From assembly GCA_017535315.1 (NCBI GenBank), contig JAFXUD010000009.1, forward strand, positions 62,001 to 126,000: 64,000 bases of DNA, given 5' to 3'. The notes under the pieces were generated by a model, which ran no database searches, was not told the DNA's origin, and saw only the letters and a list, made by a program, of their open reading frames with translations. This document shows, in pieces, positions 7,477-52,609 of the stretch. The position numbers were made by a program, and so were the translations under genes. This stretch comes from Victivallales bacterium (GTDB taxonomy: Bacteria > Verrucomicrobiota > Lentisphaeria > Oligosphaerales > Oligosphaeraceae). How positions within the stretch are numbered: the first letter of the stretch is position 1; every line of letters begins with the position of its first letter.

Positions 7477-10419
7477 TTATAAATTTGACAGTTTCAGAAT
7501 CAGGTTAATGGCCTTTGAACGGAGGCGATCTGCTGTTTTGGCATCGTGTGGAGAGGTGACGACGGCTTGGCGGGGGGCTTCCTTGAGGAAGGTCTGCGCC
7601 TCCAGGTGAAGGGGAGTGTTGCCGCCATCGGCAAGTTTTTTGAGGACGGAGAGGTAGGCGCTGTCCATCAGGCCCGTGCGGAAGGCCTCCAGTCGGACGG
7701 AGGAGACGACCTCCTCGCCCGAACGATAGCAGATGCCGCCAGCGGTGCATGCCTTCCAGTCGCGCACGCCAGCCGTTCCATGCGGTGCGTTGCACAGGAT
7801 ATAGAGGCCGATGTGCTTTCCGTCGCACTCCCAGGTTCTCCAAGCGTGGAGACGATAGTAGCGGTAGAGGTTTTCTCGCATGGAGGTGGAGCAGTAGTAG
7901 ATGCCGTAGTCGATTCCCTTTGCCGTGAGTTCTTTGAGCAGTTCACGATAGGCGGGGGATGTGAGGTGCGAGGCCCAAAAGCAGTTGTTGTCCAGATATT
8001 GATTGAACTTGCGGATGGAATCAGGCGTGTGCCCGAAATTGGGGGCCGCCCAGGTGATGGAGAGCATGGTTTTCGGTAGTGTTTGCCGAGCGAGGCGGGT
8101 AACCTCCAGGTCACGTTCCAGGTTTTTGCCGTTCGGCTCGTCAAACACCTCGATGCCCCACTCATCCTCCTTGACACCCGCCTTGCGGAAAATCTCCTGG
8201 ATAGCCAGGAGGTCGTTCTTCCAGCAGTTTTCCCACTCGGGGGTCATAAGAGTGATCTTTTTGTTCATGTAGTTCTTCTCGAAGACCTCATAGCAACTGA
8301 AATGGACCATGAAAAGGCAGCCGTTGCGACGGTTGTACTTTTCGAACCACTGGAGGCGCTTACTAATGTAATCGACCACGTCGGGAAGCTCCCCGTTTAC
8401 CAGGTTTCCCTTCTCGTCGAACTTGAACTTGAACATCCAGGGGTTGATAAGCAGATAGCGTCCGAGAAGGTCTGTCTGGAGTTTGAAGAATTTCTCGTTG
8501 GTGCCGCGTTCCATGAGCCAGGCAGGGATTTCAGGATTGTCGATGTTCAGCATGATGGGGAGGACATTCAGACAAAGTTTATAGTCCCTCATGGGGCCTT
8601 TGTAGTTGTGGACGACGATGTCGGCTGGCAGGGAGAGGGGGACCACGCGGATGGCCCCCGTGTAGCTTTGGGGCTTGACGCCGCTGCAGTCGAAGCGTAT
8701 CCACACAAGGGCTGTCTGGCCAGCAGGGACGGTGACGGTAAAGGCCTGGTTCATTTTAGGCAGCGCGTCAAAGCGGAGGCCAGCGCCGAAGGAGTCGCCG
8801 TCTTTCATCGGAATTCCCTCCATCATCGTGATGTTCTCACTGGGGAAGCCGTTGTCCAGACCGAGCGTCTCGACCTGGACGGGGGCGATGTTCGGGTGCA
8901 GAATCACGCGATAGGCGGCTGTCTCTTCGGTGCGGTTCGTGAGTGTCAGGGGCAGGGAGATGGTCTCGTTGACGGCAGCCGTCAAAAGGATGGGCTTGAC
9001 AGGCGGGAGAAGCGCATTCTCCAGATTGACGTCCAGAGGCAGGGTATAGTCCCCTGTCACGGGCATTGTGCCAAGGAGGAACTTCTCGTTGCCAAGTCGA
9101 TAGTTCTTAATGTCCTCCTTGAACTCAAGTACGGCGACATTCAGGTCATGCGGGGAGAGTTCGCCCTTGGCGATGTTTTCTTTTCTTGGAGCAAACTCCT
9201 CGGGGCAGTCTTTCACGTCAGCCAGCAGGTGGCGTGCAAACTCCTTGGGAGTGCCGAAGACCATCACATTGAACTTCTCCGTGTCATGGAAGTTGCCGCG
9301 CACGGAAGCCCAGGAGAAAAGTTGTTTGTCGTGTTGTGCGCTGACGTTGAAGAGGATGCTTTCGCCAGGTGCGGGCTTGGCGTCATAACCCAACAACTTG
9401 AAGGGGATGGTGAAGGTGGCTGTCCAGCCATTTCCAGAGACCTGTGGAACAGCCTGCCATGACGTATAGTCATCCAATTGGGTATTGCCGTTGCCGATGT
9501 AGCGTCCACCGCCTGCGCCCAGAACGAATTGCGAGAGGGTACGGTCCGACTTGGCGGTGGGGCCAAAGAAGACCTCTACCACATCATCAGCCCAGATTTT
9601 CGAGCCATTCGCCTGAACAGAAGCCTTGACAGGCGTGTCTGCCTTGCAGGTGACAACCAAGTTGACGGCATTGTCCTGGAGCGAGGCCTCCACCGAATAC
9701 ATCCCCTCGACGGGAACGCCGCTCTTCGCGTTGATGAAGTTGCTGAACTTAGACGGCAGGCAGATGTAATCCTTTGTATCGACGATTTTTTTGCGTGCTT
9801 TCGGTCCCAGTTCCACGATTGATGGTTTTTCGATGACGCGGAGATTGTCCACCAGGAGGTAGTCGCCGAGCTTCCAGTTAAAATCCTTTTCCTGTGCAGA
9901 ATCTCCCCAGAGGTTGATGATGAGGCATGCGCGCTCGGCGTTTGCCCCCGTTTTGAAGGTGCCGCGATAGGTTTTCCATTCTTTTTCGACAGGGAAGGAG
10001 CCAAGACTGGTAGTCAGGGATTCGCGGCCCTCGCTCCAGATGGAGGTTCCTGCACCCTTGAATGTTACGGCTTTAGCAGAGGCCCTCGGCGCAGTGCCCT
10101 TTGCTTCAAAGGAGAACTGATAGATGCTGTTGGGCTTCACCTTGAAACCAGGCTGCGTCCTCGAACGCCCGAAATAGAGCGCGATGTTGAGTTTTTTTGC
10201 GCCGGCTGTTTCCGTGAACTTGGCAAGTTCTGCCTTTAAGCAGCGGTTCCAGTTGTACTCCTCTGTGAAAAGGGAGACCTTCCACGTCTCTTTTGCAAAA
10301 TCGGTGAAGAGTTCTGCGCGGGGATTCTCTGCGTCAAACGCACCGTTGGAGAGGAGTTCTTCCTGCGCAAGGCAAGGAAGGGCGAGGAGGGCGAGAAAGA
10401 CAAGAAGATGTTTTTTCAT
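7477..10419 (-). CDS. Secreted DUF4091 (GH123-like) glycoside hydrolase with carbohydrate-binding domains
   Basis: ATG at 10419 with AAAGGA 9 bp upstream is preferred over the in-frame upstream start at 10449; the protein has 980 residues and starts MKKHLLVFLALLALPCLAQ, a clear signal peptide. Residues about 20-195 resemble a CBM4/9-type jelly roll (LLSNGAFDAEN...W). Residues 205-390 resemble a CBM9/DOMON-like sugar-binding domain (WADDVVEVFFGP, then ATFTIPFKLLG). After a beta-rich linker, residues about 590-940 look like a TIM barrel with WGIEVFDEPNG and LSITWAAPNFG, and the end holds SSVRLEAFRTGLMDSAYLSVL, the typical C-terminal signature of DUF4091/GH123-like enzymes. GH123 members are beta-N-acetylgalactosaminidases; the exact substrate here is not known. 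It is the last gene of the leftward cluster. Confidence 0.75.
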   Translation of the reverse strand: MKKHLLVFLALLALPCLAQEELLSNGAFDAENPRAELFTDFAKETWKVSLFTEEYNWNRCLKAELAKFTETAGAKKLNIALYFGRSRTQPGFKVKPNSIYQFSFEAKGTAPRASAKAVTFKGAGTSIWSEGRESLTTSLGSFPVEKEWKTYRGTFKTGANAERACLIINLWGDSAQEKDFNWKLGDYLLVDNLRVIEKPSIVELGPKARKKIVDTKDYICLPSKFSNFINAKSGVPVEGMYSVEASLQDNAVNLVVTCKADTPVKASVQANGSKIWADDVVEVFFGPTAKSDRTLSQFVLGAGGGRYIGNGNTQLDDYTSWQAVPQVSGNGWTATFTIPFKLLGYDAKPAPGESILFNVSAQHDKQLFSWASVRGNFHDTEKFNVMVFGTPKEFARHLLADVKDCPEEFAPRKENIAKGELSPHDLNVAVLEFKEDIKNYRLGNEKFLLGTMPVTGDYTLPLDVNLENALLPPVKPILLTAAVNETISLPLTLTNRTEETAAYRVILHPNIAPVQVETLGLDNGFPSENITMMEGIPMKDGDSFGAGLRFDALPKMNQAFTVTVPAGQTALVWIRFDCSGVKPQSYTGAIRVVPLSLPADIVVHNYKGPMRDYKLCLNVLPIMLNIDNPEIPAWLMERGTNEKFFKLQTDLLGRYLLINPWMFKFKFDEKGNLVNGELPDVVDYISKRLQWFEKYNRRNGCLFMVHFSCYEVFEKNYMNKKITLMTPEWENCWKNDLLAIQEIFRKAGVKEDEWGIEVFDEPNGKNLERDLEVTRLARQTLPKTMLSITWAAPNFGHTPDSIRKFNQYLDNNCFWASHLTSPAYRELLKELTAKGIDYGIYYCSTSMRENLYRYYRLHAWRTWECDGKHIGLYILCNAPHGTAGVRDWKACTAGGICYRSGEEVVSSVRLEAFRTGLMDSAYLSVLKKLADGGNTPLHLEAQTFLKEAPRQAVVTSPHDAKTADRLRSKAINLILKLSNL

Positions 10420-10477
10420 AGAATTATTCCTTTTGGGGTGGATATGCACACGGACACGACCACGAGGGCATTGGCCG

Positions 10478-13400
10478 TCAGCGGAGGCGGATAAGGAGAT
10501 AGGCCAGGAATGTGCCTTGGGGAACGACGACCGTGGCGGTTGATCCGTTGAGGGTGAAGCGGAGTGGCTTGGCTCCGTCGAATTCGGGGCTGTAGGCGAG
10601 GATCTCGCGGCACTTCTGCACGGGGATTGTGAAGGTGATATCCTGCGGAATGGGCGGGAAGGCGGGGTCGGGTGCCGGATGCACCAACCTGTCGCCTGGC
10701 TTCATGCAGGCGCCGAGGCCGTTGAGCAGGTGGACCACCAGGGCACCGTCGGCTTCCTGCCAAATGGCGCTGAACACCCTCTGTGGGGCGTCAAGGGACC
10801 AGTGGCGGAAGGGGGCGAAGAGCTCGGTCAGCTCCGTCTGGTAAAGAGCCTCAAGCTCCCTGTCGGGATTGTATTTCCAGATGCTTAAATGCGAGGCCTC
10901 GATTTCGTAGAATTCGGAGGCGATGGCCAGGGGGCAGTACACAAGCTGTCCCTTGCCACAGGGGACGGTAACGCGCAGAGGGTTGGTCGCCTCTGTTTGG
11001 GGTAGGAAGCCTTTGAGAGGTTTTGCCAGTTGTAGTTTGCATCCGTGGGCGTCAAGTTGGGTGACCTGGGAGAGCGAGCTGCTCTTGGGAGTGAATCCGA
11101 AGTGGTCGGCGAAGGGCCATACCTTGCGCAGGGTGCCGTACTGGTCGAAGAGGCCTGCGACAGTGGTCAAATAGACGGTGCCCCCCCTTTCGGCAAAGCC
11201 TTGAATGGCCTGGAGCTGCTCGTCGGAAAGGCATCCAGCACCGCCGACAACCAGGCACTTGTACTTGGCCAGGTGTGCCTCGTCCAGACTCATGGAGCCC
11301 AGGAATTCGGTGGGGATGTGGAGTGCCTCCAAGGTCTGTGCGAGGCCGTAGAGCTCATCTGCATATCCGACCAGGCGGTTCCAGTCGCGGCTTTCCGTGG
11401 AGAAGAGCAGCGCGATCTCGGCGACGGCCTGGGCGCCTTCCCGCTTCATGTTGATGGGCCTTGCGCTGAAACGCTCGTAGTCGGGGTCGCCCTCCTTCTG
11501 GACGAGCTGTGCGGGCATGAGACCAGTCTGGCAGGTCAGGTTGGCGACTCCCCAGGCAAAATAGGAGGATGGCCAGTCGTTAACATAGTACCAGGCATCG
11601 ACAGGCATGCCAGTGGCCAGATGGAAGACATTTTGGGTGCGGCGGAAGGGGATGAGGCTGCGTGAGGTCTGGATGACATTTCGGGTCATGGTCTCAGTGC
11701 CGACCCAGTCCAGGGCACGGCTTTCGTCGAAGAGGTCCCAGCCAAGGCTGACGCTGCGGCGGCTGCGGGTGAATGCGCCTGAATGGGTGGAGTAGTTGCG
11801 GTAAACCAGATTGGGATTGATGGGGGCGAGGTGCTTGCGCAGGGCGATATAGGAGGCGGTCACCTGGGTGTCCTGCCAGGAAACCCAACGGCGCCACAGC
11901 TCCGAATCTGGGTTGTTGAAGCAGGGGTTCAGTTCGTTCATGGGCAGGTGGCAGCCAGTGGTACGGTGGAACTCGGCGCGGCAGTACTGGCAGGCGCAGG
12001 CATGTTTCCAGAAGTTGAATTCGTCCAGCTGGAAGCCATCGACTCCCCGTTTCACCAGGTCGGCGAGATACTGGAAAAACGTCTCACGGAAGAGCGGGTT
12101 GCTGAGGCAGAACTGGAAGGATGGCAGCTGGTCGGCGTAGCCCCGTCCGACTTCTGGAAGCCTCTCGGTAAGCACTCGGGGGCCGCTGTCGCCGCAGCTC
12201 CAGAGTAGCGTGGTCGAGTGGTGGTCGATGAGCTTGAGACCCCGCTTGTGGGCCGCTTGGGCAATGCGTCCAATGGCCTCCTTGCCCCTTTCGATGGAGC
12301 CAAAATAGGCCTGGCGACCATGCATGCCCGAGAGCTCAATGGAGGTGAACTGCTTGCCCTCGATGAGCTGGTCGAGGAAGCGGTCCAGTAGGCCAGGCGC
12401 ATCCAACTCCGCCATCGAAGAGGAGTGCTTCAGCAGTTTCACGGATTTGACCTGGCGCAGCCAAGCGAACTGGGGCTGGGATATATCCTGGCGGTAGATA
12501 GGGCGCTCAGGCTCACGGGGATTCGCGGCCAGCTCCGTGCCTGGTTCTGGCAGGACTAGCTCCTCGGTGGCCGTCTGGAAAACAGGGGTTTTCTTGTAGA
12601 ATTCATTGCGGTAGAGGACGCCTGGCTCGTAGCCATCGACCACCCAGAAGCCACGGCGGAAGGCGAAGTCCTCCGCATCGGTGACGAGGGGCTGGACGGC
12701 GATGGTGGAAAGGATAAACTCTCCATCCAGGCTAATCTCGATGCTGCCTTCCTGGACATGGTAGGCCCGTGAGTAGGTGCGGACCGTCCTGGGCTTGACA
12801 TGGATATTTCCAGCCAGCTCCTGTCCGTTGACAGCGATGCGGAAGGCATTGTCCACTCCAGGGTAGTTGCCTGCTCCGACGGTGATGATGTGGAAGCCCT
12901 TGCGGAGGCCTGTGATGCGGAAGCAACGTTTGCCTGAGCCATGGACATGGGCATAATAGGCTCCTTCAGGAGAGCCGCTACAGGGCTCAGAGGGCTCCAG
13001 TCCGTCGGACCAGCCGAAACCCTTCTGGACATTAAATGGGAGATTGGCGGGGGTATAGGCCTTGCCGACTCGGTTGTTGCCAAAGCTGTAGAGGCGAGAG
13101 GGCATGAGGTGCTGGCTGTACACGAAACTCCGCATGGCATGAAGGCGGTCGTAGTCATCAAAACCGCCTTCCCGCAGGATCAGCTTAGCACCAGTGAAAC
13201 CTCCGCAGTGGGTGACGGTGGAGCCGCCAGTTAGGGTGAGGCACCCATCCTCATGCTTGACATTCCATACGCCCTTGATGGCACCCGTGCGATACATCAT
13301 ACAGTGGTCAGTGGGGCCGATGGGATTGAAGTCGAAGGTAACTCCACGGCAGGCCATCCAGCGGAAAAAGTTGGAGTTCTTGCCCTGGAATGTGCCCTTG

Positions 13401-13816
13401 ACTGGTTTCCAGCTGCGACCGTTTTCGGCCAAGGCCTGGAAATCCTGACCGTCGAAGCAGGCCTTGTTCAGGGGCAGGATAAGCATTCGGGTGCAATTGG
13501 GATCCAGGGCGTCGATTTCGCCAGTCATGGTGATCTCAATGGCGCCGTCCGCCCGCTGTGCCACCTCCAGACGGAAGCGGTTGTTCTGTTGTTCGCACCA
13601 GCGCTGCCAGGCAAGCGTGCCGTCTGGCAGTGCCTGATGGGAGGTGTGAACTGTGACCCGCTCCATTGGGATGTCGGTCTTCATCTCCATCGATTCAATC
13701 AGCACGATTCCATCGCGCTTGACGGCAAATGAATCCCCCTGTGGTTCCACCGTGAGTCTGGCGGAAAGCATGGCTGCAAAAAGCAGGATGGGAAGGAACA
13801 GATGACGTAATTTCAT
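10478..13816 (-). CDS. Large secreted glycoside-hydrolase-like protein with TIM barrel and glutamine-amidotransferase-like domain
   Basis: ATG at 13816 is chosen because the protein then opens MKLRHLFLPILLFAAMLSA, a signal peptide; the upstream in-frame extension to 13864 would overlap the previous gene's end. Length is 1,112 residues. The first 450 residues are beta-rich with a jelly-roll-like segment (FRITGLRKGFHIITVGAG). Residues about 470-860 form a TIM barrel: RGLKLIDHHS, GVDGFQLDEFNFW (candidate acidic residues D and E) and the CACQYCRAEF cysteine motif frequent in PVC glycosidases of the beta-galactosidase/GHL type. Residues about 880-990 (CLVVGGAGCLSDEQLQ, GGTVYLTT) match the beta-galactosidase trimerisation/GATase-like fold. 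A hydrolase of unknown substrate is inferred. It begins 34 bp after the stop of the 1,426-residue gene. Confidence 0.7.
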   Translation of the reverse strand: MKLRHLFLPILLFAAMLSARLTVEPQGDSFAVKRDGIVLIESMEMKTDIPMERVTVHTSHQALPDGTLAWQRWCEQQNNRFRLEVAQRADGAIEITMTGEIDALDPNCTRMLILPLNKACFDGQDFQALAENGRSWKPVKGTFQGKNSNFFRWMACRGVTFDFNPIGPTDHCMMYRTGAIKGVWNVKHEDGCLTLTGGSTVTHCGGFTGAKLILREGGFDDYDRLHAMRSFVYSQHLMPSRLYSFGNNRVGKAYTPANLPFNVQKGFGWSDGLEPSEPCSGSPEGAYYAHVHGSGKRCFRITGLRKGFHIITVGAGNYPGVDNAFRIAVNGQELAGNIHVKPRTVRTYSRAYHVQEGSIEISLDGEFILSTIAVQPLVTDAEDFAFRRGFWVVDGYEPGVLYRNEFYKKTPVFQTATEELVLPEPGTELAANPREPERPIYRQDISQPQFAWLRQVKSVKLLKHSSSMAELDAPGLLDRFLDQLIEGKQFTSIELSGMHGRQAYFGSIERGKEAIGRIAQAAHKRGLKLIDHHSTTLLWSCGDSGPRVLTERLPEVGRGYADQLPSFQFCLSNPLFRETFFQYLADLVKRGVDGFQLDEFNFWKHACACQYCRAEFHRTTGCHLPMNELNPCFNNPDSELWRRWVSWQDTQVTASYIALRKHLAPINPNLVYRNYSTHSGAFTRSRRSVSLGWDLFDESRALDWVGTETMTRNVIQTSRSLIPFRRTQNVFHLATGMPVDAWYYVNDWPSSYFAWGVANLTCQTGLMPAQLVQKEGDPDYERFSARPINMKREGAQAVAEIALLFSTESRDWNRLVGYADELYGLAQTLEALHIPTEFLGSMSLDEAHLAKYKCLVVGGAGCLSDEQLQAIQGFAERGGTVYLTTVAGLFDQYGTLRKVWPFADHFGFTPKSSSLSQVTQLDAHGCKLQLAKPLKGFLPQTEATNPLRVTVPCGKGQLVYCPLAIASEFYEIEASHLSIWKYNPDRELEALYQTELTELFAPFRHWSLDAPQRVFSAIWQEADGALVVHLLNGLGACMKPGDRLVHPAPDPAFPPIPQDITFTIPVQKCREILAYSPEFDGAKPLRFTLNGSTATVVVPQGTFLAYLLIRLR

Positions 13817-13850
13817 GGTTTGTTCCGAAAGATTGCCTATGTGCCCCTGG

Positions 13851-16800
13851 CTACTCAACAACAAAGACGCGGGTTTCGCCGACGCGCATGGGGAGTTTGA
13901 TGGTGGTGGTGCCAGCGGGCCAGGTCTGACCAGTCAGGATGTCCTTGGGGGTGCCTTTGCCCAGGAGGTTGATCTCCTTGGTGCCCTCGTTGGAGGCGTA
14001 GATGCCGATGAAGCCGCGACCTGCGTAGAAGCCGTCATTGCCAGTTGCAAGGACGGGCACGCCTGCCCGTTTCGCGATGGCACGCAGCACTGCGGGCGAG
14101 AGGCCTGGTGCCGCGCTCCAGAAGAGATTGCACGTTTTGCCATTCTTGTATAGTGCAGACGGGCGACCATCGGCAAGCGTGGCCAGAACATCGCAGCCCG
14201 TGGTGGCGGTAGGCATCAGGAATTGTGTCGATTTATAGGCGGGGTTGTGACCCCATTCTTGTCCTTCAAGGTCCTTCCAGGTCGTGGTACCCTTACTCTT
14301 CAGGAGAGTCTTCTCGTCGATGAGCGTGAAGGGGCATCCCATGAGCTTGGAGCAGTAGTCGGCTGAGAGCCCGTTGGGAGTCAGCATGCCTGGACAGCCC
14401 ACGAACGCAACGGTTCGGTCATCCTTCAACACCTTTTCCTCCAAGTATTTCTTGTACTCATCGGTCAGGCGATATGCATCCAGGAAGAGCATCGCCTTGT
14501 GGGCGAGAAGCTCGGGGTGGCGCAGAAGGTCGGAGAAGAGGACGACCTTCCAGGGAATGCCTGCCCGCCAGAGGTAGGTCATCTGGTTCTGGTGAAGTTC
14601 GCTGCCGCCGACGTTGCTGAACGCGTTCCAGCGCCCCATAAAGCGTTCGTCCAGGACGACCAGCAGGTAGTTTTCAGGAGCCCAGTCCTTGACAGTGTTC
14701 CTGTATTTGCAGCTGAGGTCATAGAGTTTACCTGCTGCTTGCATGAGGCGTTTGTCGCCCATCGTCCAGCCATTGGAGAAGTCGTACCACTGTATTCCGT
14801 TGCCTTCCGACATGCATCTGGCGAACTCGCGTTCCATGCAGTCAATGGATTCCTGGACGGTTGCGACGTATCCGTCGGGCTGCCGTTGATAGACCCAGTG
14901 GCTACGCAAATCCGCCTGGTTCCAGAAGAACTTGCCATTCAGGCGGAATGTACCGCCAGGCGTCATGGTCTTGGAGGTACCGCCCACATGGCGTTCACCA
15001 TAGCAGTCGGGGGCGATGCAGTAGTCGAACTCGGGTGAGCGGAGCATCGTCTCCAGGCGGTAGTGGCCCGAACCTTGACCGAAGAAGACGGAATCGAAGA
15101 GGTTGAAGGTGTAGCCGTAGTAGGTGCCGCAGATGACACGCCCGTCCGTCTCTTCCTTTACGATACGGTTGAAGTAGTTGATGGTTTCGACGCAGTTGTC
15201 ATGTTGGTAGTCGTTGTAATCCAGCACGTTCATTTGCGTCTTCGGGTCGTAGTAGAGGCCATTGGCGGGGGTACCGCGTTCCTTGCCCGTGGGGATGGTG
15301 GCGGTGTCGAACGTTACGTCCGCGCGTGCCCACGCCTTCTGCAAGGCGGCATCGGTGCCATATTTGGCCTTGAGCCAGCGGCGGAAGTCATCCCGCGAGG
15401 CATCAGAGTAATCGACAAAGTGCTGCGATTGGGAACCCCAGTGGAACCATTCGGCGGAGATGCCGTTGATGGAATGGAAGCCGACGATGCGCTCCGCGTA
15501 GGGAGTCGTCTTGAGATGGCGGATGAAATGGCGCAGAACATCGGCGTAGGTTTCGCGCCAGACCTTGGAGGCATACGAGGGACGGTAGCCCTTTGCGCTC
15601 TTGTAGTCGTTGACCATATCGCTGCCGTCCTCATAGCGGCAACGCGCGTCAGGGTGCTGCGCCATCCACCACTGGTGGGTGTTTGTGCGTACACTGTAGT
15701 TGATGATGAGCCAGGCATTTGGGTCAACGGAGAGGTACTTTTCGGCGGCGGCGTCAAAGTTCGAGTAGTCGAAGCCGTGCTCTGTGAATCCCATGTCGCC
15801 ACTGATGCCCCAGAGGTGAATGCCCGCGTCGCGCGTGTAAATCTGCTGCTTCTGGTCGGGTTTGGTGAAAAGGGCCTGCGTCGGGTCGATTAGCTGACCA
15901 TTCACGTGGATGTTCGTAAGGCCATTTTGCGAGACAAGCTCGACCTTGGGGAACTCATAACTTTTTTTCTCCATGGCATCGACAAAGACCTCTGCCGAGA
16001 AGTCGCTACCTTCGGGGGCGCCCAGAAACTCGATTTTCATCGTGCATAGTCCACGCTTGAGCTTGAAGGGGAAGAAGGCGTCCATCGTGAGTTGCGGTTT
16101 CCCGTCGCGCATGGCAAGGCCGTTCTGAACCCAATCTTCCCAGACGGTATTGCCATTCTGGAGAAGATGGTATTTGACAGGGATGGGATTGTCCAGTTTG
16201 ACAGATTCAACAACAACATCCAGATCGATGCGCTGGCCAGGTTTGACATTTTGGGGGAGGTTCCTGACAGTTACCCTCAATGGTTCCTTGATGGAGTTTT
16301 GCGCACGCATGGGTCTGTAATTGGCGTGCCCCCAGGGGGAGCAGGGCGGACGCCCAAGCACGGCGGCAGGTGCCCAAGGACCCTCTTTACTGACAGAAGC
16401 CTGCCACTTGCCGTCCGTGGCAAGAGAGATGAACTGTCCGTCCTTGGCGACAATGACGACATCGGCGATGAAGCCTTGGAAGGAGCCGACATCGGTGATT
16501 TCCGCCAGAATAGTGTTGGCACCAGGCTTCAGGAAGGGGCGGAGGTCGAGGATTTCAGGCTTCTTCCATGCATCCGCCACGCCATGCGTCGAGTGGACGA
16601 GCTGGCCGTTGACATAGAGGGCGTAGCTGTCATCGCAGGTCAACTGGATGTCAGCAGAGGCCAGCTCTTTGTTTGGCAGATTGAAGCTCTTCTGGACGTA
16701 TGCGGTGCAGTTGTCCTGAAGCTTGTTTTCCTCGCACCAAATCCATTGGCCTTTCCAGGTTGTCTTGAGAGGTGGTGGCGTGACGATGGTGCCCTCTTCA

Positions 16801-18131
16801 AGTTGGGTGCATTTCAGGGTGTCAAGCCAGGCCTCCCCCGTTCCCGTGAAGCGGAGGATGCCATCGTAGGCGAGTTCAGGGATGGTGATGGTGAGCTGAT
16901 TATCCTGCCAGACAGTTGACTGCGTTGTTTTCAGCGGGATGGTTTCGATGGTCTTTTTGTCCCAGCCACGGAAGACGCATTCCGCATTGATGGATTCGCC
17001 TTTGGTCTTGAAGGAGAATTGGAAGACACCGAGCTTCCCGACATTGGGGAGGTTGGTCTCCGCGACAGCACTCTTGGAGAAGGCAATGCAATTTGTTCCG
17101 CTGAAGGCCTCTTGCGAGACGGTGGTTCCTTTCAAGGTCCAGCCGTATGGAGTACCATCAAGGAAGATTTCGCAGTCGCCATTCAGAATGGCGTTTTTTT
17201 CTGTTTTCAGCAGGGTGATGAATTCAATCTGGATGTTGGTGTCTGCTGGATTGATGGGGTCAAAGCGGAGTCTGTTGATGATGCCCCTCCAGCCATTGAT
17301 GGATTTCAAATCAAATGTGAGCAGTTTCAGTTCACTGCTGGAGACGATGCTAAATGGTTTGTACTGCTTTTCATTGAAAACCGAGCCGTTGGCGCTGATG
17401 AATATCTCGCCAGTAGCGCTGATGTCGCTTTTCATGCCCACGAACATCGTGTCGAACTCCTCCGCCTTGAGGTTGAGTTCTGGGGAGATGAGACTGCAAT
17501 CGTGCATGGAAAGGCCATGGAAGCCGTCTGGGCGGATTTCGTTTTTTACCCATCGGTTTGGCGTCCATCCCTGAAGGCCGTTTTTGAATCTCCAGGTGAT
17601 GCTTCCGTTTTTATAGGGGAGGGTGACTGGCAGGCCGTTTGTTGTTGTCACGCTGTCCTTGTTAATGCCACGCTTGAGCAGTTTAATGGACTGGATGACG
17701 ATATCCGAGGAAGGATTGATGGGGTCGAAGCGAATCTGCTCAATCATGCCTTCCCAGCCTTTGATATTGGAGAGATTCAGGTTGTAGAGCAGGAAGTTTT
17801 CACCATCGCGGGTACGGTGGTGACGGTACTTTTTCTCCGCGAAAACCTCGCCTTTTGCGCGGATGAATATCTCGCCCGTGGAGGCTAGGTTGCATTTCAT
17901 GACAACGGCCAGCGTGTCGTAGTCCGCCGCGTTGATGTTCAAAATGGGGGAGAAGAACATAGCATCCCGCTTGACCTTCCCCGAAAAGCCTTCCGAGGTG
18001 ATTTCATGGCTTTCAAAGCCGCGGACACCCCAGCCCTGAAGTCCGTCCTTGAAGTTCCATTCCAACGACTTCGGTTGCGCAAGCAGAAGTGCTGAAAGCG
18101 TTAGGAGAAATGCGATGATTTTCTTGCTCAT
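13851..18131 (-). CDS. Giant secreted GH42-like glycosidase with duplicated N-terminal modules
   Basis: Starts at ATG 18131 with GGAG 8 bp upstream; 1,426 residues with signal peptide MSKKIIAFLLTLSALLLA. Two tandem homologous modules follow (about 22-150 and 175-310): LEWNFKDGLQGW/ITWRFKNGLQGW, STGEIFIRAKG/ATGEIFISANG and EQIRFDPINPSSD/NRLRFDPINPADT. Next come a CBM-like module (NAILNGDCEIFLDGTPYGW), then a rhamnosidase-like sugar-binding domain (QWIWCEEN, DDSYALYVNGQLV). Residues about 760-1170 are a GH42-like barrel (WLIINYSVRTNTHQWW; GISAEWFHWG with a candidate acid/base Glu; DDFRRWLKAKYGTDAALQKAW), followed by a GATase-like domain (LLVVLDERFMGRW; VAFVGCPGMLTPNG). Beta-galactosidase-like activity is inferred from the family. 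It sits in the middle of the leftward glycan cluster. Confidence 0.75.
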   Translation of the reverse strand: MSKKIIAFLLTLSALLLAQPKSLEWNFKDGLQGWGVRGFESHEITSEGFSGKVKRDAMFFSPILNINAADYDTLAVVMKCNLASTGEIFIRAKGEVFAEKKYRHHRTRDGENFLLYNLNLSNIKGWEGMIEQIRFDPINPSSDIVIQSIKLLKRGINKDSVTTTNGLPVTLPYKNGSITWRFKNGLQGWTPNRWVKNEIRPDGFHGLSMHDCSLISPELNLKAEEFDTMFVGMKSDISATGEIFISANGSVFNEKQYKPFSIVSSSELKLLTFDLKSINGWRGIINRLRFDPINPADTNIQIEFITLLKTEKNAILNGDCEIFLDGTPYGWTLKGTTVSQEAFSGTNCIAFSKSAVAETNLPNVGKLGVFQFSFKTKGESINAECVFRGWDKKTIETIPLKTTQSTVWQDNQLTITIPELAYDGILRFTGTGEAWLDTLKCTQLEEGTIVTPPPLKTTWKGQWIWCEENKLQDNCTAYVQKSFNLPNKELASADIQLTCDDSYALYVNGQLVHSTHGVADAWKKPEILDLRPFLKPGANTILAEITDVGSFQGFIADVVIVAKDGQFISLATDGKWQASVSKEGPWAPAAVLGRPPCSPWGHANYRPMRAQNSIKEPLRVTVRNLPQNVKPGQRIDLDVVVESVKLDNPIPVKYHLLQNGNTVWEDWVQNGLAMRDGKPQLTMDAFFPFKLKRGLCTMKIEFLGAPEGSDFSAEVFVDAMEKKSYEFPKVELVSQNGLTNIHVNGQLIDPTQALFTKPDQKQQIYTRDAGIHLWGISGDMGFTEHGFDYSNFDAAAEKYLSVDPNAWLIINYSVRTNTHQWWMAQHPDARCRYEDGSDMVNDYKSAKGYRPSYASKVWRETYADVLRHFIRHLKTTPYAERIVGFHSINGISAEWFHWGSQSQHFVDYSDASRDDFRRWLKAKYGTDAALQKAWARADVTFDTATIPTGKERGTPANGLYYDPKTQMNVLDYNDYQHDNCVETINYFNRIVKEETDGRVICGTYYGYTFNLFDSVFFGQGSGHYRLETMLRSPEFDYCIAPDCYGERHVGGTSKTMTPGGTFRLNGKFFWNQADLRSHWVYQRQPDGYVATVQESIDCMEREFARCMSEGNGIQWYDFSNGWTMGDKRLMQAAGKLYDLSCKYRNTVKDWAPENYLLVVLDERFMGRWNAFSNVGGSELHQNQMTYLWRAGIPWKVVLFSDLLRHPELLAHKAMLFLDAYRLTDEYKKYLEEKVLKDDRTVAFVGCPGMLTPNGLSADYCSKLMGCPFTLIDEKTLLKSKGTTTWKDLEGQEWGHNPAYKSTQFLMPTATTGCDVLATLADGRPSALYKNGKTCNLFWSAAPGLSPAVLRAIAKRAGVPVLATGNDGFYAGRGFIGIYASNEGTKEINLLGKGTPKDILTGQTWPAGTTTIKLPMRVGETRVFVVE

Positions 18132-18170: not shown

Positions 18171-18235
18171 CTAGACAATCTAGACAATCTAGACAATCTA
18201 GACAACCTAGACAATTTAGACACTGGACAATCTAG
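18171..18235. repeat. 9-bp tandem array (CTAGACAAT unit), about 7 copies
   Basis: Units of CTAGACAAT repeat from 18171 with a few substitutions (CTAGACAAC, TTAGACACT) and end CTAG at 18232-18235. The stop codon of the M55 gene (TAG, complement of CTA at 18232-18234) lies in the last unit. A short version of the same array (CCTAGACAATCTAGATAATC) is found at 25007-25029. Confidence 0.85.
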
Positions 18236-19077
18236 TCTTTCAAATTTTCAAACTTGGCGGAACTCAGGGCGTTGATAGCCTCCGTGAAGGTGGAGTATCC
18301 CTCGACCTTCTGGATGCGGCGCGGCATGTTGGTGGCTTCGATGGCGCGCATTTCACGCACAATGGAGTAGGGGGCGTGGAACTCGCGGTACTTGAAGACG
18401 CTTCGGTTGGTGAAGTAGAGGCTGATGGCCTGAAGTGCCTTTTCGCGAATCAGCTTGCAGGCGGCCTTCGGGGCGAGGTGGTTTGCGCTCAACTTGCTGT
18501 TGGAGTATTGCTCGGCGGTGAGGCCACGCTTGTGGTCGTCGGGCAGGATGCCACGCTTCACGGCTGCCGTCACGACGCCTGGTGTCAAGTCTGCTGCCTC
18601 GCGGCAGAAGGCCTCCTCGCCCGCCACCATGATGGTTGGAATGCCCTGTTCCATGGCGCACAGCGCCAGTTCGCCGAATTCACCGATAGAGTAGCCGTTT
18701 ACGCTGATGTCATAGCAGGCAAAGCTCCCTGTATGCGTGAGGTGGCTGTAGGGTGTGCCTGACTTTGCGTGCTGGCCAATGATGACCATCGCGTCGTAAC
18801 CTTCGTCAAGCCCCCATGGATAGACGGGGCGGTGGATGCCACGCTCATAACGGCACCGCTCGTCCAGTAGCTCGACAGCAACGGCACCTGGCCCGTGCCC
18901 ATCCAGAACGGTCACCGCATCGGCACCTCCCTCGAAGAAACCATCCGACGCCGCATTGACCTCTTCGGTCAGCAGACGCTTAGCCAAATCATAATATCTG
19001 TCACCAGGCGTGCAGTAGTTCTTGAAATCCACGACGCCTGCGACACCTTCCAAATCGGTCATGAGGTAAATGTGCAT
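18232..19077 (-). CDS. M55 family D-aminopeptidase (DppA-like)
   Basis: The 281-residue protein starts MHIYLMTDLEGVAG, the characteristic opening of DppA, a zinc-dependent D-aminopeptidase that acts on D-Ala-containing peptides. The metal ligands of the family are all present: D8 and E10 in TDLEGV, H61 in LDGHG, H103 in IIGQHAKSG and E133 in SIGEFGE; H115 (LTHTGS) fits the catalytic histidine. No signal peptide, so it acts in the cytoplasm. A Shine-Dalgarno AAGGA lies about 9 bp before the ATG. The gene sits between two 9-bp tandem arrays, and its stop codon is inside the downstream one. Neighbours (giant glycosidases downstream, DJ-1 and the peptidase/acetyltransferase fusion upstream) suggest breakdown of imported peptidoglycan-like or D-amino peptides. 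Confidence 0.9.
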   Translation of the reverse strand: MHIYLMTDLEGVAGVVDFKNYCTPGDRYYDLAKRLLTEEVNAASDGFFEGGADAVTVLDGHGPGAVAVELLDERCRYERGIHRPVYPWGLDEGYDAMVIIGQHAKSGTPYSHLTHTGSFACYDISVNGYSIGEFGELALCAMEQGIPTIMVAGEEAFCREAADLTPGVVTAAVKRGILPDDHKRGLTAEQYSNSKLSANHLAPKAACKLIREKALQAISLYFTNRSVFKYREFHAPYSIVREMRAIEATNMPRRIQKVEGYSTFTEAINALSSAKFENLKD

Positions 19078-19277: not shown

Positions 19278-19820
19278 TTATGCTATCATGCCTTTGGCAA
19301 GCGAAGCGGCGACATCGGGCTTGCCAAGTTCGCGCACGAGGGTGAGGGCGAATTCCAGAGAGGCACCTGGACCACAGCCTGTGGTGATTTGTCCATCGAC
19401 CTCGACGCGCGATGCAGTGTAGTCGCCACCGATCTGCTTTTCAAAAGACGGGTAGCAGGTGTAGCGATGGCCAGCAAGCACGCCAGCAGCCGCCAGTGCA
19501 ATCGGGGCCGCGCAGATGGCGGCAACGTGGTCACCATTGGCAACCACTTCCGCGATGAGCTTACAGAGTGCCTTGCATTCGGCAAGATGCTTGGCTCCAG
19601 GCATTCCGCCAGGGCAGACGACGAGCTGCAAATCGGAGGCCTTCAGGCTGGAGAGACGGGTATCAGTTTTCACGACCACGTTGTGGGCTCCCGTCACGAA
19701 CTCCTTGTCCGTGATGGAGACCATTTCGACATTGAAGCCTGCGCGGCGAAGGACATCGACGCTGGTAAGTGCTTCGACTTCCTCGAAGCCGTCGGCAAAG
19801 AATACGGCGATTTTCTTCAT
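19278..19820 (-). CDS. DJ-1/PfpI family protein (YajL/ThiJ-like)
   Basis: 180 residues, start ATG 19820 with AAAGGA 8-12 bp upstream. The protein opens MKKIAVFFADGFEEVEAL and contains the nucleophile-elbow cysteine C103 in AAICAAP, the partner glutamate E16 in GFEEVEA, and GGMPGAKHL, all as in DJ-1, YajL and ThiJ. Such proteins protect against reactive carbonyls or act as glyoxalase III/deglycase-like or chaperone-like enzymes; precise activity cannot be read from sequence. Cytoplasmic. It lies in the leftward cluster between the repeat element at 19847-20031 and the M55 gene. Confidence 0.92.
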   Translation of the reverse strand: MKKIAVFFADGFEEVEALTSVDVLRRAGFNVEMVSITDKEFVTGAHNVVVKTDTRLSSLKASDLQLVVCPGGMPGAKHLAECKALCKLIAEVVANGDHVAAICAAPIALAAAGVLAGHRYTCYPSFEKQIGGDYTASRVEVDGQITTGCGPGASLEFALTLVRELGKPDVAASLAKGMIA

Positions 19821-19846: not shown

Positions 19847-20031
19847 GTAACTATCCAGAAGGCACAAGTTGCCAGATTTTTTGCGCCGTGCCGCGTAGCG
19901 AAGCGGAGCGGCACGGCGCAAAGGAACTGGGGTATCGCTTGCCCGTGGGTTTCGCTCGCGCCAGAGGCGCTCGCTTCACCCACGGCTATGTTCTTGACGC
20001 CGCTACGCGGCTTATCCTTCTGAATAGTTAC
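19847..20031. mobile_element. MITE-like element, family R1 copy 1
   Basis: Ends are inverted repeats GTAACTATCCAGAAGG (19847-19862) and CCTTCTGAATAGTTAC (20016-20031), 15 of 16 matching. Inside are hairpin I (TGCGCCGTGCCGC 19882-19894 with GCGGCACGGCGCA 19908-19920) and hairpin II (CCGTGGGT from 19943 with CACCCACGG to 19985). Related copies are at 38707-38897 and 58424-58566. No transposase is encoded. The right end supplies the TAA stop of the MFS gene. Confidence 0.8.
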
Positions 20032-21209
20032 GGTTTATGCTTGATTCTTGAATATGCGAAGAAGACGTATGGGATGAAGAGGAGGCAAAGCAGGGAGGCA
20101 GTGGTAAAGACACCTTGCACACCCGTGTAGTAGATGACTCCGCCAGAAAAGAGGGCACTCAGCATGATGCCCGTGTTTTCCGCAGTGGTGTTCATTCCAA
20201 AGACAAGACCCTGTTTGTCCTTATCGGTGACTTTTGTGATGAGCGTCAGAAAAATGGGACCGATGCCGCCGATGGCCAGATAGGCGACGAAGCGCGCTGC
20301 AATAAGGGAGTAGGTGGAGGCGGCGTAGGTCTGCCAGAGCAGGGCAGCGCTGCCAAGGAGCAGTGCGGGAAAAATGATTTTTGTGGCGGTGGTTCTGTCT
20401 GCAAGGTAGCCGCAGATTGCCCCTGCGATGACACCTCCCAAGGCGGCGCCCGCACAGACGATGCCTGTCCAGAAGGCGGCTGTCTGCTCGCCCGTGATGC
20501 GTTTCACGAGTTGTGGCAGATAGGGGAGTTCAAAACTGCGGATGAAGCCCAGCAGCAGTATCAGCGAGAGGATGATCCAGATATTGGCTCCCATGGAGAA
20601 AAGCCCTGCTTTTCTTGGAGTCTCGTTTTTTGTGACAGGCTTGAAATCCTCATGTACAAAGAGCACGATGATTCCAGAGAGAAAATAGGTGAATCCGCAG
20701 AACATGAAGGCGGCGGTGAAGCCGAATCTGTGGACGATCAGCCCGCCAAAGAGGTAACCCAACATGTTGCCGCTCCAAAGGGCGGTGCTCAGCAGACCAA
20801 GGGCAAAGCCATGGTATTGCTTGGGAGTTCCCGAGACAATCAGTGGCTGCGCCGCGCTGGTCGTTCCTGTGAACATTGAGGCCAGGATGCGCAGGATGAA
20901 CAGCACCATGATGTTGGGAGAGTAAACCATCAGCGGGAAGATGAAGGAGTCCATGAAACAGGCACGGAGCAGCATCAGCTTGCGTCCGTAGCGGTCCGCC
21001 AGCCGTCCCCAGATGGGGGCCATGATGGCAAAGCTGCCCGTGCTTATGAAATGGAACCAACTGACAATCAGACCGAGCGTGCGTTCATCCGCAATGCCGT
21101 AGCGTTTGCTGATGAATAGTGGGATGAAGGGCAGGGCAGCCGCATATCCCACCACCACAAGTATCTGTGAAAGCCACAGGAGCAGTAGATTGGTCTTCCA
21201 GCGTTCCAT
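20028..21209 (-). CDS. MFS transporter (TetA-like efflux family)
   Basis: 393 residues with twelve predicted membrane segments and the MFS signature GRLADRYGRKLML after segment 2 (about residues 67-79). The pattern of the first segments (LPFIPLFISKRYG) fits TetA/multidrug-type proton antiporters of the drug:H+ antiporter-1 group; a sugar-derivative exporter is also possible. It starts 15 bp after the end of the peptidase/acetyltransferase fusion gene, so the two are probably cotranscribed. The C-terminus (...RIKHKP) ends exactly at the inverted repeat of the R1 element, whose TAA is the stop codon. Confidence 0.88.
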   Translation of the reverse strand: MERWKTNLLLLWLSQILVVVGYAAALPFIPLFISKRYGIADERTLGLIVSWFHFISTGSFAIMAPIWGRLADRYGRKLMLLRACFMDSFIFPLMVYSPNIMVLFILRILASMFTGTTSAAQPLIVSGTPKQYHGFALGLLSTALWSGNMLGYLFGGLIVHRFGFTAAFMFCGFTYFLSGIIVLFVHEDFKPVTKNETPRKAGLFSMGANIWIILSLILLLGFIRSFELPYLPQLVKRITGEQTAAFWTGIVCAGAALGGVIAGAICGYLADRTTATKIIFPALLLGSAALLWQTYAASTYSLIAARFVAYLAIGGIGPIFLTLITKVTDKDKQGLVFGMNTTAENTGIMLSALFSGGVIYYTGVQGVFTTASLLCLLFIPYVFFAYSRIKHKP

Positions 21210-21224: not shown

Positions 21225-23906
21225 TTATTCCTTGACGGAGGCCGCCACGACGCGTGGGCGGACTGGGCAATTTTGGCAAACCTTCTTTAATACCTCCGTA
21301 TGGCACTTCTTGAAATCGGAGAGCTTGAAGAACAGAAGTTCCGCGTTACCGAAGGTCTCCACTTTGACGAGGTTTCGCTTGAACATCAAAGGCCAGGTCT
21401 CCTTGAGTTCGGCGAGGGCGCAGCGTCCGTTCCTCCATGACCATGTCTTGACCATCTTGACGGAGCCGTCTGGGAAGCGTACGGGATACTGTTCGCCAAA
21501 GGGAAGGATGCATGGGGCATGGACGGCGAACTCTACCGTATGCATATAGGTGATGGCGTTCGCGCAGTTGATCGCCAGTACATAGCCGTCGTTCTTTTCC
21601 AGAATGTCCAGGGGGGAGCCTTCGCCGACGGCGCACACCTCATGGTGGTGCTCCAGCAGTTCCTTCGAGCCGTTGCCCCAGGCCGCGACGGAGTGGGTTG
21701 GGTTCAGGGAACGTGTGACGCCAGGCATGGTGCGGAAGGTCTCTGTCAGGATGCCGACTTGGGACTTGGTGGTTTTCGGGTCGAATACGCCGTCTTCGTT
21801 GAACTTGTAGAAGTTGAAGGCAGGCATGGCGAGGAGCCCTTTCGGGGTTAGGCGTTTCTCCAGCATCTTGATGACGGCCTTCGGGCCGCCCTCGATTGCT
21901 CCAAGGAAGCTGAAGGAGGAGTGGACAAACAGCTTCATCCCAGCTTTGACTCCCAGTTTTTCCAGCACTTCGTCAAACTCCTTGATGGTGCCTGGCACAA
22001 AGGGCTTGACGCGCAGGTAGCCGTATTTTTCGAACACTTTGACGGCGTTGATGATGGTTTGGATATGCTCTTTGGAGTAGTGATGACCATCGCGGTTGTA
22101 TTCCGCGTTGATGATGGCGTCATAGAGGGTGGTTTTCCCGTCGCAGAATGAATAGATTGCATCGAATCCCTCACCGAAGGGGATGCGTTCGTCGTGCGGG
22201 ATTCTGGCCTGTGAATGGATGCTGGATGGCTGGATGGGTTCAATGACCATGTTCTTGGCGCGTCCGATGGCAGGTGCGGTGTATTCAGGGAGGACAGGGA
22301 GTTTTTGTGCATAGGAGAACAACTTGGTGGCCGCATTGTTGAAAGCTAGGTCGTAGGAAAGCCGCTCCATGTTCTGTTGTGAAAACAGACCAGAGTAGTA
22401 GTGTAGCACAGAAAGCACACGCTCGGAGGTCTTTAGAGAGAGGAAGAAGGCCTTTCTCATGGCATATTGGGCAGAAATGGCATTCGTCTTGAGTTCATCA
22501 AGATTCTTCAGAAGACGTTCCTCCAGGGTTTGGCAGGCTGTCTTTTTCAGTTGAGGCAGCATTTCCTTGAAATCTTCCTTGCGGAACGTTGCAATGACGG
22601 CGGCGCAGAGTCCTAGGGATGCGGCGGAGATGCGGGCCAGTTCCCAGTCGGGGTCGCTGAACTGCCAGCCCGAATTGTGGTGGTAGGTGCGGTCGCTGCT
22701 GTGCAGCCAGTTGCATGGGATGTTCATCAGGGCGCCTGACATGAAGGTATCGTCGGAGAGGTTTCCATATTCCGTGTGGAAATGCAGCACCTTGTGGTAC
22801 TGCTCCAGAGCGTAGCGCAGCACATAGTCGGTGAAGGATGGAGAAGCATCCGCCGTAGTGCGCAGTCCCGTCTCCTTTCGGCCATCGCTGTATCTGTTGA
22901 CATGGCAGGTGCTGTCAAAGCTGAAAACATGCAGGGCACGCTTGATGTTTTCGGGACTTGTGAACCACCCATTGAAACCATAGCGTTCCATGGAGACGAT
23001 GACGCGCAGAGTGTGCTTCAAGGGCGGGAGTTTCTTTTGTGCGACCAGTTCGCGGATGGCGCAGGCGACGGCGATGGCCTGTGATGCACCAGCTGCGTCG
23101 TCCGCCAGGAAGGGCTCGTAGATGTGAGCGATGAGCAGTATTTCCTTGGAATCCTTGCCAGGCACGATGCCCGTTACGGTGTAAAGTTCATCGTCATAAA
23201 CCTTTGTGTTCATCACGCCGTATGCCTTCACGGGTTTCCCCTTTGCAAGAAGCGAGCGGATGAAGTCTGCCTTGCGTGGAGTGATGCAGAAGATGACGCC
23301 ACGCTTGTCATCCTTTGTGTGATACCACCCGATGCGACCGACGCCATTGCTCCAGCGGATCTCATCGTAGGTCTCCTTGGGGGCGGCAGAGTCGCTGACG
23401 ATTATGGCCGCGGCATTGTGCTCCACGCAATAGAGATATGCCTTGCGGTAGGAATTGAAGGCTATAAGCACGAATTTTCCTTCGACGTCGGGATTTTCCT
23501 GGTCGAGTTTTTCCCAATCGACGACTTCCGCGTGGATGCCTTCGGGTGGTGTTGGCATGCTCCACATGCCTGCCGCAAAAGGGGTTTGGTTTGTGTCGCA
23601 GATCATGGCGTCTTCGTAGGAGAGTTTCTTGTCCTCGATTTGGAGGAAGGAGCGTCCTGTGCGATCCCATGCCTGCGGGATGATGTAGTCATTGAAGGCG
23701 GTTTTACCGTCGCATGGGATGGGAATCATCTGGACATTTTCAAGGCCAGAGGCCAGCATGAACTGCTGGCAGCAGTAGGCTGATTTCTTGAAATTGGCCT
23801 GACCATAGTTGCGCTCAAAACCATTCATGATTTCGGCGCGTTTCTGGATGGTTTCGACGTCGATGGCATTGTAAAGTTTTTTGAGGGTGTTGGAAAGAAT
23901 GCTCAT
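21225..23906 (-). CDS. Fusion of M28-like metallopeptidase, winged-helix segment and AAC(3)-like N-acetyltransferase
   Basis: 893 residues with no signal peptide. Residues 1-430 resemble M28/DUF4910-type aminopeptidases: a PA-like insert (GKFVLIAFNSYRKAYLYC, about 142-175), candidate metal ligands H in LLIAHIYEPF (about 261), D in LADDAAGAS (about 268), E in SMERYGFN (about 308), D in FSFDSTCH (about 329) and H in YHHNSGW (about 409). Residues about 565-630 (FCDGKTTLYDAI, then KVFEKYGYLRVK) look like the winged-helix tail found after such peptidases. Residues 634-870 match the aminoglycoside 3-N-acetyltransferase (Antibiotic_NAT) family: LFVHSSFSFLGAIEGG, SLNPTHSVAAWG, GEGSPLDIL and a late HTVEFAVHAP. 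The peptidase and acetyltransferase halves on one chain suggest removal of one acyl or aminoacyl group and transfer of acetyl to the freed amine. Substrate unknown. Confidence 0.8.
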   Translation of the reverse strand: MSILSNTLKKLYNAIDVETIQKRAEIMNGFERNYGQANFKKSAYCCQQFMLASGLENVQMIPIPCDGKTAFNDYIIPQAWDRTGRSFLQIEDKKLSYEDAMICDTNQTPFAAGMWSMPTPPEGIHAEVVDWEKLDQENPDVEGKFVLIAFNSYRKAYLYCVEHNAAAIIVSDSAAPKETYDEIRWSNGVGRIGWYHTKDDKRGVIFCITPRKADFIRSLLAKGKPVKAYGVMNTKVYDDELYTVTGIVPGKDSKEILLIAHIYEPFLADDAAGASQAIAVACAIRELVAQKKLPPLKHTLRVIVSMERYGFNGWFTSPENIKRALHVFSFDSTCHVNRYSDGRKETGLRTTADASPSFTDYVLRYALEQYHKVLHFHTEYGNLSDDTFMSGALMNIPCNWLHSSDRTYHHNSGWQFSDPDWELARISAASLGLCAAVIATFRKEDFKEMLPQLKKTACQTLEERLLKNLDELKTNAISAQYAMRKAFFLSLKTSERVLSVLHYYSGLFSQQNMERLSYDLAFNNAATKLFSYAQKLPVLPEYTAPAIGRAKNMVIEPIQPSSIHSQARIPHDERIPFGEGFDAIYSFCDGKTTLYDAIINAEYNRDGHHYSKEHIQTIINAVKVFEKYGYLRVKPFVPGTIKEFDEVLEKLGVKAGMKLFVHSSFSFLGAIEGGPKAVIKMLEKRLTPKGLLAMPAFNFYKFNEDGVFDPKTTKSQVGILTETFRTMPGVTRSLNPTHSVAAWGNGSKELLEHHHEVCAVGEGSPLDILEKNDGYVLAINCANAITYMHTVEFAVHAPCILPFGEQYPVRFPDGSVKMVKTWSWRNGRCALAELKETWPLMFKRNLVKVETFGNAELLFFKLSDFKKCHTEVLKKVCQNCPVRPRVVAASVKE

Positions 23907-23932
23907 GGAAGATGCCTTTATGAATTATGGAT

Positions 23933-24748
23933 TTAATGGAAGAAGACGGATTTGCGCATGACGCGCTTCAAATCATCGAAGTCGTAGTTGCTGGACCACC
24001 AGGTTGGATGCTGGAGAAAGAACATCACATCGCCTTCGCGGCATTTTTTCAGTTCTGCGACGAAATCGTCGCCGCCGTAGCAGTTCGTCCCTTCACTGAC
24101 ATGGCGGAAGCGGTTGCCCAGTTCCTTGCGTAGATGGTTCATGAAGAAGTAGAACTCGCCGTATTTGGGCAGTCCGCATTCATCCAGAAGGTGCTGGTCG
24201 TATTCGCCATTGGTGCGGAAAAGGGCTGCTGAATCGATGCCTGACTTATAGACGCCGTGCCCGAATGCGACGCTGATTTTTGGGAAGAAGGTGCGGAGGT
24301 AAGCGATGTTTTTGCGGAAACTCTCAAGACCTGCCTTCTGGTCGCCCTGGGTGATGACGAGGTCCTCGTGCTGGTATTCGATGTCATGGTCCCCTAGTTC
24401 GGCAATCTTCAGGAGGTCTTGCCGCCATTCTTCGTCGATGGCGCAGATCACGCGGATGTTGAAACTGCTGCGGAAGCCGAAGGAGTGTTCCATCTCTGCC
24501 ATGCGTCGTGCAAGGAGATTGTCGTTGGGGCGCTCAACGTCGTGCATCCAGACGACACGTACCTTGTCAGGCACCAGCAACTCTCCCTTCATATAGAGGT
24601 CAAGCCCCTCTGCCTCTGTGACGGTGGAGTAGCGCGGATTGCTCATCTCCGCGCAGATTTTTGCATATTCAAACGAATTAAGGTCCTGCTTCACGTGGGC
24701 ATAATGCTCAAAAGCAAGATCCATGGGGATGTACTTTGGACTGCTCAT
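23933..24748 (-). CDS. NodB/polysaccharide-deacetylase-like protein
   Basis: 271 residues, cytoplasmic. The motif WMHDVERPNDNLLARRM followed by RSSFNIRV resembles the HDVD...aTFFV opening of carbohydrate esterase family 4-type deacetylases, and GDHDIEYQHEDLV corresponds to the GHEIGxHxx motif; VAFGHGVYKSGID is the later barrel strand region. The first catalytic Asp of classical NodB (TFDD) is replaced by MHDVE, so metal-dependent amide hydrolysis is plausible but not proven. It is the first gene of the leftward cluster, 26 bp before the M28/AAC(3) fusion gene, which makes joint action on an N-acylated sugar or amine likely. No good Shine-Dalgarno precedes the start. Confidence 0.7.
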   Translation of the reverse strand: MSSPKYIPMDLAFEHYAHVKQDLNSFEYAKICAEMSNPRYSTVTEAEGLDLYMKGELLVPDKVRVVWMHDVERPNDNLLARRMAEMEHSFGFRSSFNIRVICAIDEEWRQDLLKIAELGDHDIEYQHEDLVITQGDQKAGLESFRKNIAYLRTFFPKISVAFGHGVYKSGIDSAALFRTNGEYDQHLLDECGLPKYGEFYFFMNHLRKELGNRFRHVSEGTNCYGGDDFVAELKKCREGDVMFFLQHPTWWSSNYDFDDLKRVMRKSVFFH

Positions 24749-52604: not shown

Positions 52605-52609
52605 GGAAT

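Follow-up and report, generated by a model that had tools for sequence, protein, structure and literature searches.

The role of DUF4910 proteins has been open since the genetic work on Cj1295 (2010) and the structure of CA_C2195 (2014). In Campylobacter jejuni, flagellin pseudaminic acid acquires its di-O-methylglyceroyl (N-acyl) form only if the aminopeptidase-like DUF4910 protein Cj1295 is present, for which cleavage of an amide followed by substitution was put forward (PMC3068675); next to it lies Cj1296/7, annotated as an aminoglycoside N3'-acetyltransferase (PMC3025981). Das et al. suggested that CA_C2195 acts on sugar amides as an amidase or by transacylation, reported that aminosugar N-acetyltransferases and gene fusions of unspecified kind occur near its homologues, and judged classical DUF4910 proteins, in which the M28 catalytic residues are lost, unlikely to be peptidases (PMC4000134). 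Here we describe a gene that joins a DUF4910/M28-like half to an AAC(3)-type acetyltransferase in a single chain, found in a stretch of 64,000 nucleotides (the window, from whose position 1 all window coordinates are counted) of a gut-type Victivallales bacterium (Oligosphaeraceae, Lentisphaeria, Verrucomicrobiota; GCA_017535315.1, contig JAFXUD010000009.1, positions 62,001-126,000, forward strand). We tentatively propose, at somewhat less than an even chance, that its product is a cytoplasmic bifunctional N-acyl exchange enzyme that would deacylate and then re-acylate an amino-sugar-type substrate.

The open reading frame (ORF) starts with ATG, contains no internal stop and encodes 893 residues. 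That both halves reside in one chain, as the initial annotation had stated, is agreed on by the intact ORF, Pfam, profile searches and AlphaFold2/Foldseek, which together with other evidence delimit the following features:

21225-23906, minus strand: the 893-residue fusion protein, M28/DUF4910-like domain, helical segment, winged helix and AAC(3)-type acetyltransferase (Pfam, profile search, AlphaFold2, Foldseek)
22617-23906, minus strand: DUF4910/M28-like domain, residues about 1-430, with a PA-type insert at about 112-235 (hhalign, conserved residues)
22251-22589, minus strand: all-helical segment, residues about 440-552, linking the M28-like domain to the winged helix (DSSP on the AlphaFold2 model)
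21999-22250, minus strand: winged-helix domain, residues about 553-636, probably related to HTH_47 of CA_C2195-type proteins (hhalign, weak MarR-type PDB match)
21279-21998, minus strand: Antibiotic_NAT (AAC(3)) domain, residues about 637-876, with T786-x-x-H789-x-x-E792 (Pfam, profile, Foldseek, motif)

The AlphaFold2 model of the fusion was confident (pLDDT 89.6, pTM 0.79) and Foldseek matched it both to M28 enzymes and to AAC(3)-IIIa, FrbF and YokD. A PDB search with the single sequence found the AAC half only, the M28 half requiring an alignment profile; the profile built from 32 homologues matched AAC(3) structures at 1e-48 and the solved M28 structures 3iib (9.1e-16), 2ek8 (3.2e-15) and 3k9t, which is CA_C2195 (7e-12), and the profile of the N-terminal half alone gave the same M28 matches. 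Among these 32 aligned homologues, Pfam matches at E<=0.01 were obtained for Antibiotic_NAT in 26, Peptidase_M28 in 25 (best 2.6e-13) and DUF4910 in 23 (best 6.3e-12), so that domain search and structure prediction alike recover an M28-like and an AAC(3) domain.

The acetyltransferase half is complete, as had been annotated: Antibiotic_NAT (PF02522) covers residues 661-873 (1.3e-40, 139.9 bits against a cut-off of 25), and TxxHxxE, the catalytic motif of this family (PMC8956665), is kept in the aligned AAC domains (H in 27 of 27, E in 26 and T in 25). A C877xxC880 motif lies directly C-terminal to the domain. No obvious signal peptide was seen by eye in the fusion, which fits cytoplasmic use of coenzyme A (CoA). 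The source genome holds a second long AAC(3)-bearing protein (L109:1004-2200, corresponding to G000:C12:about 8003-9199), in which AAC is followed by what looks by eye like a sugar isomerase/epimerase-type TIM-barrel segment, and AAC-bearing frames of about 480-540 residues occur in many relatives.

The N-terminal half is more divergent. DUF4910 (PF16254) scored 16.5 bits on residues 237-401 of the fusion, under the cut-off of 26.6, and several homologous fusions pass this cut-off with up to 40 bits. Aligned by hhalign with classical DUF4910 proteins, the N-terminal half matched over the whole domain (99.4%, E 5e-21, 325 columns), and the winged helix matched their C-terminal domain (probability 82%, E 1e-5, 44 columns, a DGxxtL motif in both), which bears out the winged-helix-like segment of the initial annotation; Pfam gave no HTH_47 match. 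Across the 32 homologues, with identity down to about 20%, H261, E264, R301, E307, D331 and H410 are invariant and D269 is kept in 29. By hidden Markov model alignment H261, D269, D331 and H410 occupy the ligand positions of M28, and E307 lies in the M28 EE pair, where either Glu fits; in the hhalign comparison with classical DUF4910 proteins E264, not H261, sits opposite the Zn-binding His. M28 peptidases have a catalytic Asp in HxD and two Glu in the EE pair; the fusion lacks the former and has one Glu in place of the latter, and for these reasons the half is grouped with DUF4910 and not with the classical aminopeptidases. The N-terminal half and winged helix are diverged relatives of CA_C2195 and, as annotated, Cj1295. 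Of the metallopeptidase-like half first described, the conserved residues of metal-ligand type are borne out, and its placement shifts to DUF4910.

In a search of 99 genomes (the source genome and relatives), 52 matched the fusion protein, many via the AAC half only. Many Lentisphaeria have intact fusions of 800-1050 residues, which also occur elsewhere in the phylum; one more, in a Bacillota-labelled metagenome-assembled genome (L032:5899-8715), was the only one among 291 sampled genomes of its class and reflects either a transfer or a mis-binned contig. The single-chain fusion, initially regarded as unusual, is thus a widespread lineage architecture rather than a one-off, the halves are not split in all relatives, and dozens of intact homologues rule out a frameshift or assembly artefact. 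A literature search found no paper on Antibiotic_NAT in such a fusion. The exceptions are a homologue with breaks (G088:C94) and one split by a single in-frame stop in G006 (G006:C296; L040:8448-11261), where an M28-like ORF is followed by a winged-helix and AAC ORF, a natural split or a pseudogene; in G001, a genome of the same genus, the gene (74-88% identical) is interrupted by contig ends.

Pooled over the loci, 52 ORFs combine M28-like and AAC domains, 16 hold only the M28-like domain and winged helix and 25 AAC alone, counts that are not frequencies, as one gene may recur in two loci and loci were picked for matching. Because the M28-only forms are scattered and nested among fusions in the tree, the phylogeny suggests that the AAC domain was lost repeatedly. 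Some exchange of AAC domains among homologues is also possible, given that distances in the M28-like half correlate less with those in the AAC half (0.39) than with those in the winged-helix part (0.72). Repeated independent fusion was considered and not shown; a single origin of the fused AAC domains was not rejected (approximately unbiased test, p 0.44, for a set named after the tree had been seen).

The two families also meet outside the fusion. Of 20 loci with full-length unfused classical DUF4910 genes, taken from the Bacillota-class sample and this phylum, five have an AAC(3)-type gene directly adjacent on the same strand, upstream in L164 and L165 and downstream in L171, L173 and L175, while about 0.07 adjacencies would be expected with five AAC genes per ~3000, a figure that is our estimate and not a measured background. 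Pfam verified one of these pairs, DUF4910+DUF2172+HTH_47 beside Antibiotic_NAT. The genes around the pairs include those for a CMP-sugar-type cytidylyltransferase, KAS III, SDR and methyltransferase-like proteins, which fit sugar activation and the synthesis of unusual acyl groups. The Shewanella and Clostridium flagellin-glycosylation literature added nothing further on the pair.

The fusion, the DUF4910/AAC(3) adjacency and the Cj1295 genetics agree with one another, and the fusion is kept over wide divergence with both sets of active-site residues maintained; on these grounds we favour N-acyl exchange. In the proposed mechanism a metal bound by the M28/DUF4910-like half would let it hydrolyse an acyl or aminoacyl amide on a nitrogen of a small amino-sugar-type substrate, and the AAC(3)-type half would then re-acylate the freed amine with acetyl-CoA or a different acyl-CoA as donor. 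The winged helix may serve assembly or substrate handling rather than DNA binding, as suggested for CA_C2195. The idea of N-acyl removal and re-acetylation put forward initially is therefore our best reading, backed by the adjacency and by the Cj1295-Cj1296/7 pair; the export that was attached to it is not carried over.

Four further genes of the same directon surround the fusion gene:

23933-24748, minus strand: CE4/NodB-like protein, 271 residues, upstream of the fusion, HDVE as motif 1, Gln for the motif-2 His (structure model, motif)
20028-21209, minus strand: MFS transporter, downstream of the fusion (Pfam MFS_1 1.4e-45; order kept in G001)
19278-19820, minus strand: DJ-1/PfpI family protein, next in the directon (family match; kept in G001)
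18232-19077, minus strand: M55 protein of the D-aminopeptidase family (DppA type), following in the directon (family match; kept in G001)

The gaps beside the fusion gene, 26 bases on the NodB-like side and 15 on the MFS side, are consistent with one operon for these three genes; predicted promoters and terminators were no more frequent than in shuffled sequences. The directon runs NodB-like, fusion, MFS, DJ-1 and M55, followed by genes for giant proteins resembling GH42 and GH123, and its first five genes have the same order in G001, on two contigs. A phylum-wide NodB-fusion-MFS operon was also considered; the order was found only within the genus. The three consecutive very large proteins at 7477-18131 (990, 1128 and 1426 residues), with weak GH123, GH42M and GH42 matches, are probably distant glycoside hydrolases.

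Pfam gave no match for the 271-residue NodB-like protein. Its structure model had CE4 proteins as the top three PDB matches (best E 8.6e-4, modest TM-scores), one of them a CE4 pseudoenzyme. On the motif positions expected for the family, the Asp-His-His metal motifs are incomplete, with Gln where the motif-2 His is expected, as in all four close sequences, so that deacetylase activity is doubtful and the protein is possibly a pseudoenzyme; the CE4-like fold of the annotated upstream deacetylase stands, its activity less so. A 53%-identical homologue (L074:511-3238) adjoins, by eye, glucose-1-phosphate thymidylyltransferase-like and D-2-hydroxyacid dehydrogenase-like genes, with no fusion gene within the stretch fetched. 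Likewise, the downstream gene belongs to the MFS family, but its description as an exporter is unsupported, since a family match gives no direction of transport.

Near the fusion homologues there are genes for DUF6259, DUF4838, GH-like, sulfatase, glucuronyl esterase and CBM9 proteins and for sugar transport. Read from these neighbours, taken without a genome background, the setting of the fusion looks catabolic, mostly carbohydrate breakdown, whereas classical DUF4910 genes have a biosynthetic one. This lends no support to the modified aminoglycoside or natural product first suggested as substrate and speaks, with the GH42/GH123-like genes downstream in the window, for N-acyl exchange in a catabolic role: in this genus, the MFS protein could import an oddly N-acylated sugar, which the enzyme would convert to the common N-acetyl form for carbohydrate breakdown. 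We infer the deacylase chemistry, order of steps, substrate, coupling of the sites, catabolic setting and the parts played by the NodB-like and MFS proteins from this combined picture. Enrichment of pseudopilin neighbours is not claimed, as the genome carries at least 100 such genes.

Several observations weigh against N-acyl exchange. With no HxD Asp and one Glu in place of the EE pair, hydrolysis is not assured, and the cited literature contains no DUF4910 protein with a demonstrated activity or substrate. Several homologues have neither an AAC domain nor an AAC gene nearby, which indicates that the M28-like half can act without AAC. Furthermore, the catabolic neighbourhoods lack a genome background, and pseudopilin genes, seen among the neighbours, are common throughout the genome.

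The altered active-site residues lend weight to the possibility that the M28-like half is a binding or scaffold module, or one of acyl transfer without a free amine, and that only the AAC(3)-type half acts, on a sugar amine. The loss of M28 catalytic residues from classical DUF4910 proteins, held to be unlikely peptidases (PMC4000134), agrees with it. However, H261, E264, E307, D331 and H410 would hardly be invariant in 32 divergent homologues, in a set fuller than that of CA_C2195, and the 16 ORFs with M28-like domain and winged helix but no AAC are hard to explain if AAC did everything; we regard this alternative as unlikely, but not negligible.

Peptide processing, in which the M28-like half would trim an N-terminal residue or D-amino acid and the AAC half acetylate the new amine, draws on the M28 aminopeptidases being the top solved-structure profile matches of the N-terminal half and on the M55 gene in the same directon, kept in G001. 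Against this, classical DUF4910 genes lie in sugar clusters, Cj1295 alters a glycan and not a peptide, and the M55 linkage is confined to the genus in a genome with four M55 genes, which makes this explanation improbable. One such gene stands elsewhere in the window (51714-53632), beside a Gfo/Idh/MocA oxidoreductase gene. Aminoglycoside resistance as the function, with an accessory domain attached, is very improbable: the C-terminal half does belong to Antibiotic_NAT and has the family's catalytic motif, but it scores far under the cut-offs of the NCBIfam AAC(3) equivalog resistance models (e.g. 83 against 270 bits), has many paralogues per genome and carbohydrate-type neighbourhoods, is fused to a metal-site domain, and belongs to a family that, as with FrbF, also acts on non-antibiotic amines.

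The natural fusion to an acyl-CoA-dependent N-acetyltransferase, with adjacency of the two genes elsewhere, names the reaction partner of DUF4910, and a single purified protein would allow deacylation and re-acylation to be assayed jointly; N-acyl exchange, if right, would account for bacterial variation of sugar N-acyl groups. A bolder generalisation, which we consider speculative and on balance rather unlikely, is that DUF4910-AAC(3) is a general bacterial module for swapping amino-sugar N-acyl groups, here in one chain with a fuller M28 metal site, the amine passing between the sites, and normalising oddly acylated sugars in glycan breakdown. A warning also follows, namely that an AAC(3)-family match alone does not make a resistance gene.

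Among known systems, AAC(3)-IIIa, AAC(3)-IVa, BA2930, YokD and FrbF share the fold and TxxHxxE motif of the C-terminal half but stand alone, and the fusion domain is 22-28% identical to AAC(3) enzymes. The M28 aminopeptidases with a PA domain (3iib, 2ek8) share with the fusion the fold, the PA-type insert and apparently most metal-ligand positions, whereas the fusion lacks the HxD Asp, has a single Glu for the EE pair and adds helical, winged-helix and AAC domains. Like CA_C2195 of Clostridium acetobutylicum (PDB 3k9t, PMC4000134), it has an M28-like fold with an inserted domain, a winged helix, probably of the same type, C-terminal to it, a conserved Arg (R301, aligned with classical R218) and the final His (H410, H324 in CA_C2195). 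CA_C2195, of the classical group in sugar-linked neighbourhoods, is a 434-residue DUF4910+DUF2172+HTH_47 protein without AAC, and the fusion has, by sequence, a PA-like instead of a DUF2172 insert and an additional helical segment. CA_C2195 has only three Zn ligands (H189, D195, H324) and Pro for the catalytic Glu, whereas the fusion offers H261, D269, E307, D331 and H410, and its predicted metal site looks nearer to a working M28 site. Finally, Cj1295 and Cj1296/7 represent, by annotation, the same two families side by side, tied genetically to an N-acyl change on a nonulosonic acid; there they are separate genes of a biosynthetic locus, whereas here they form one chain in a carbohydrate-breakdown setting.

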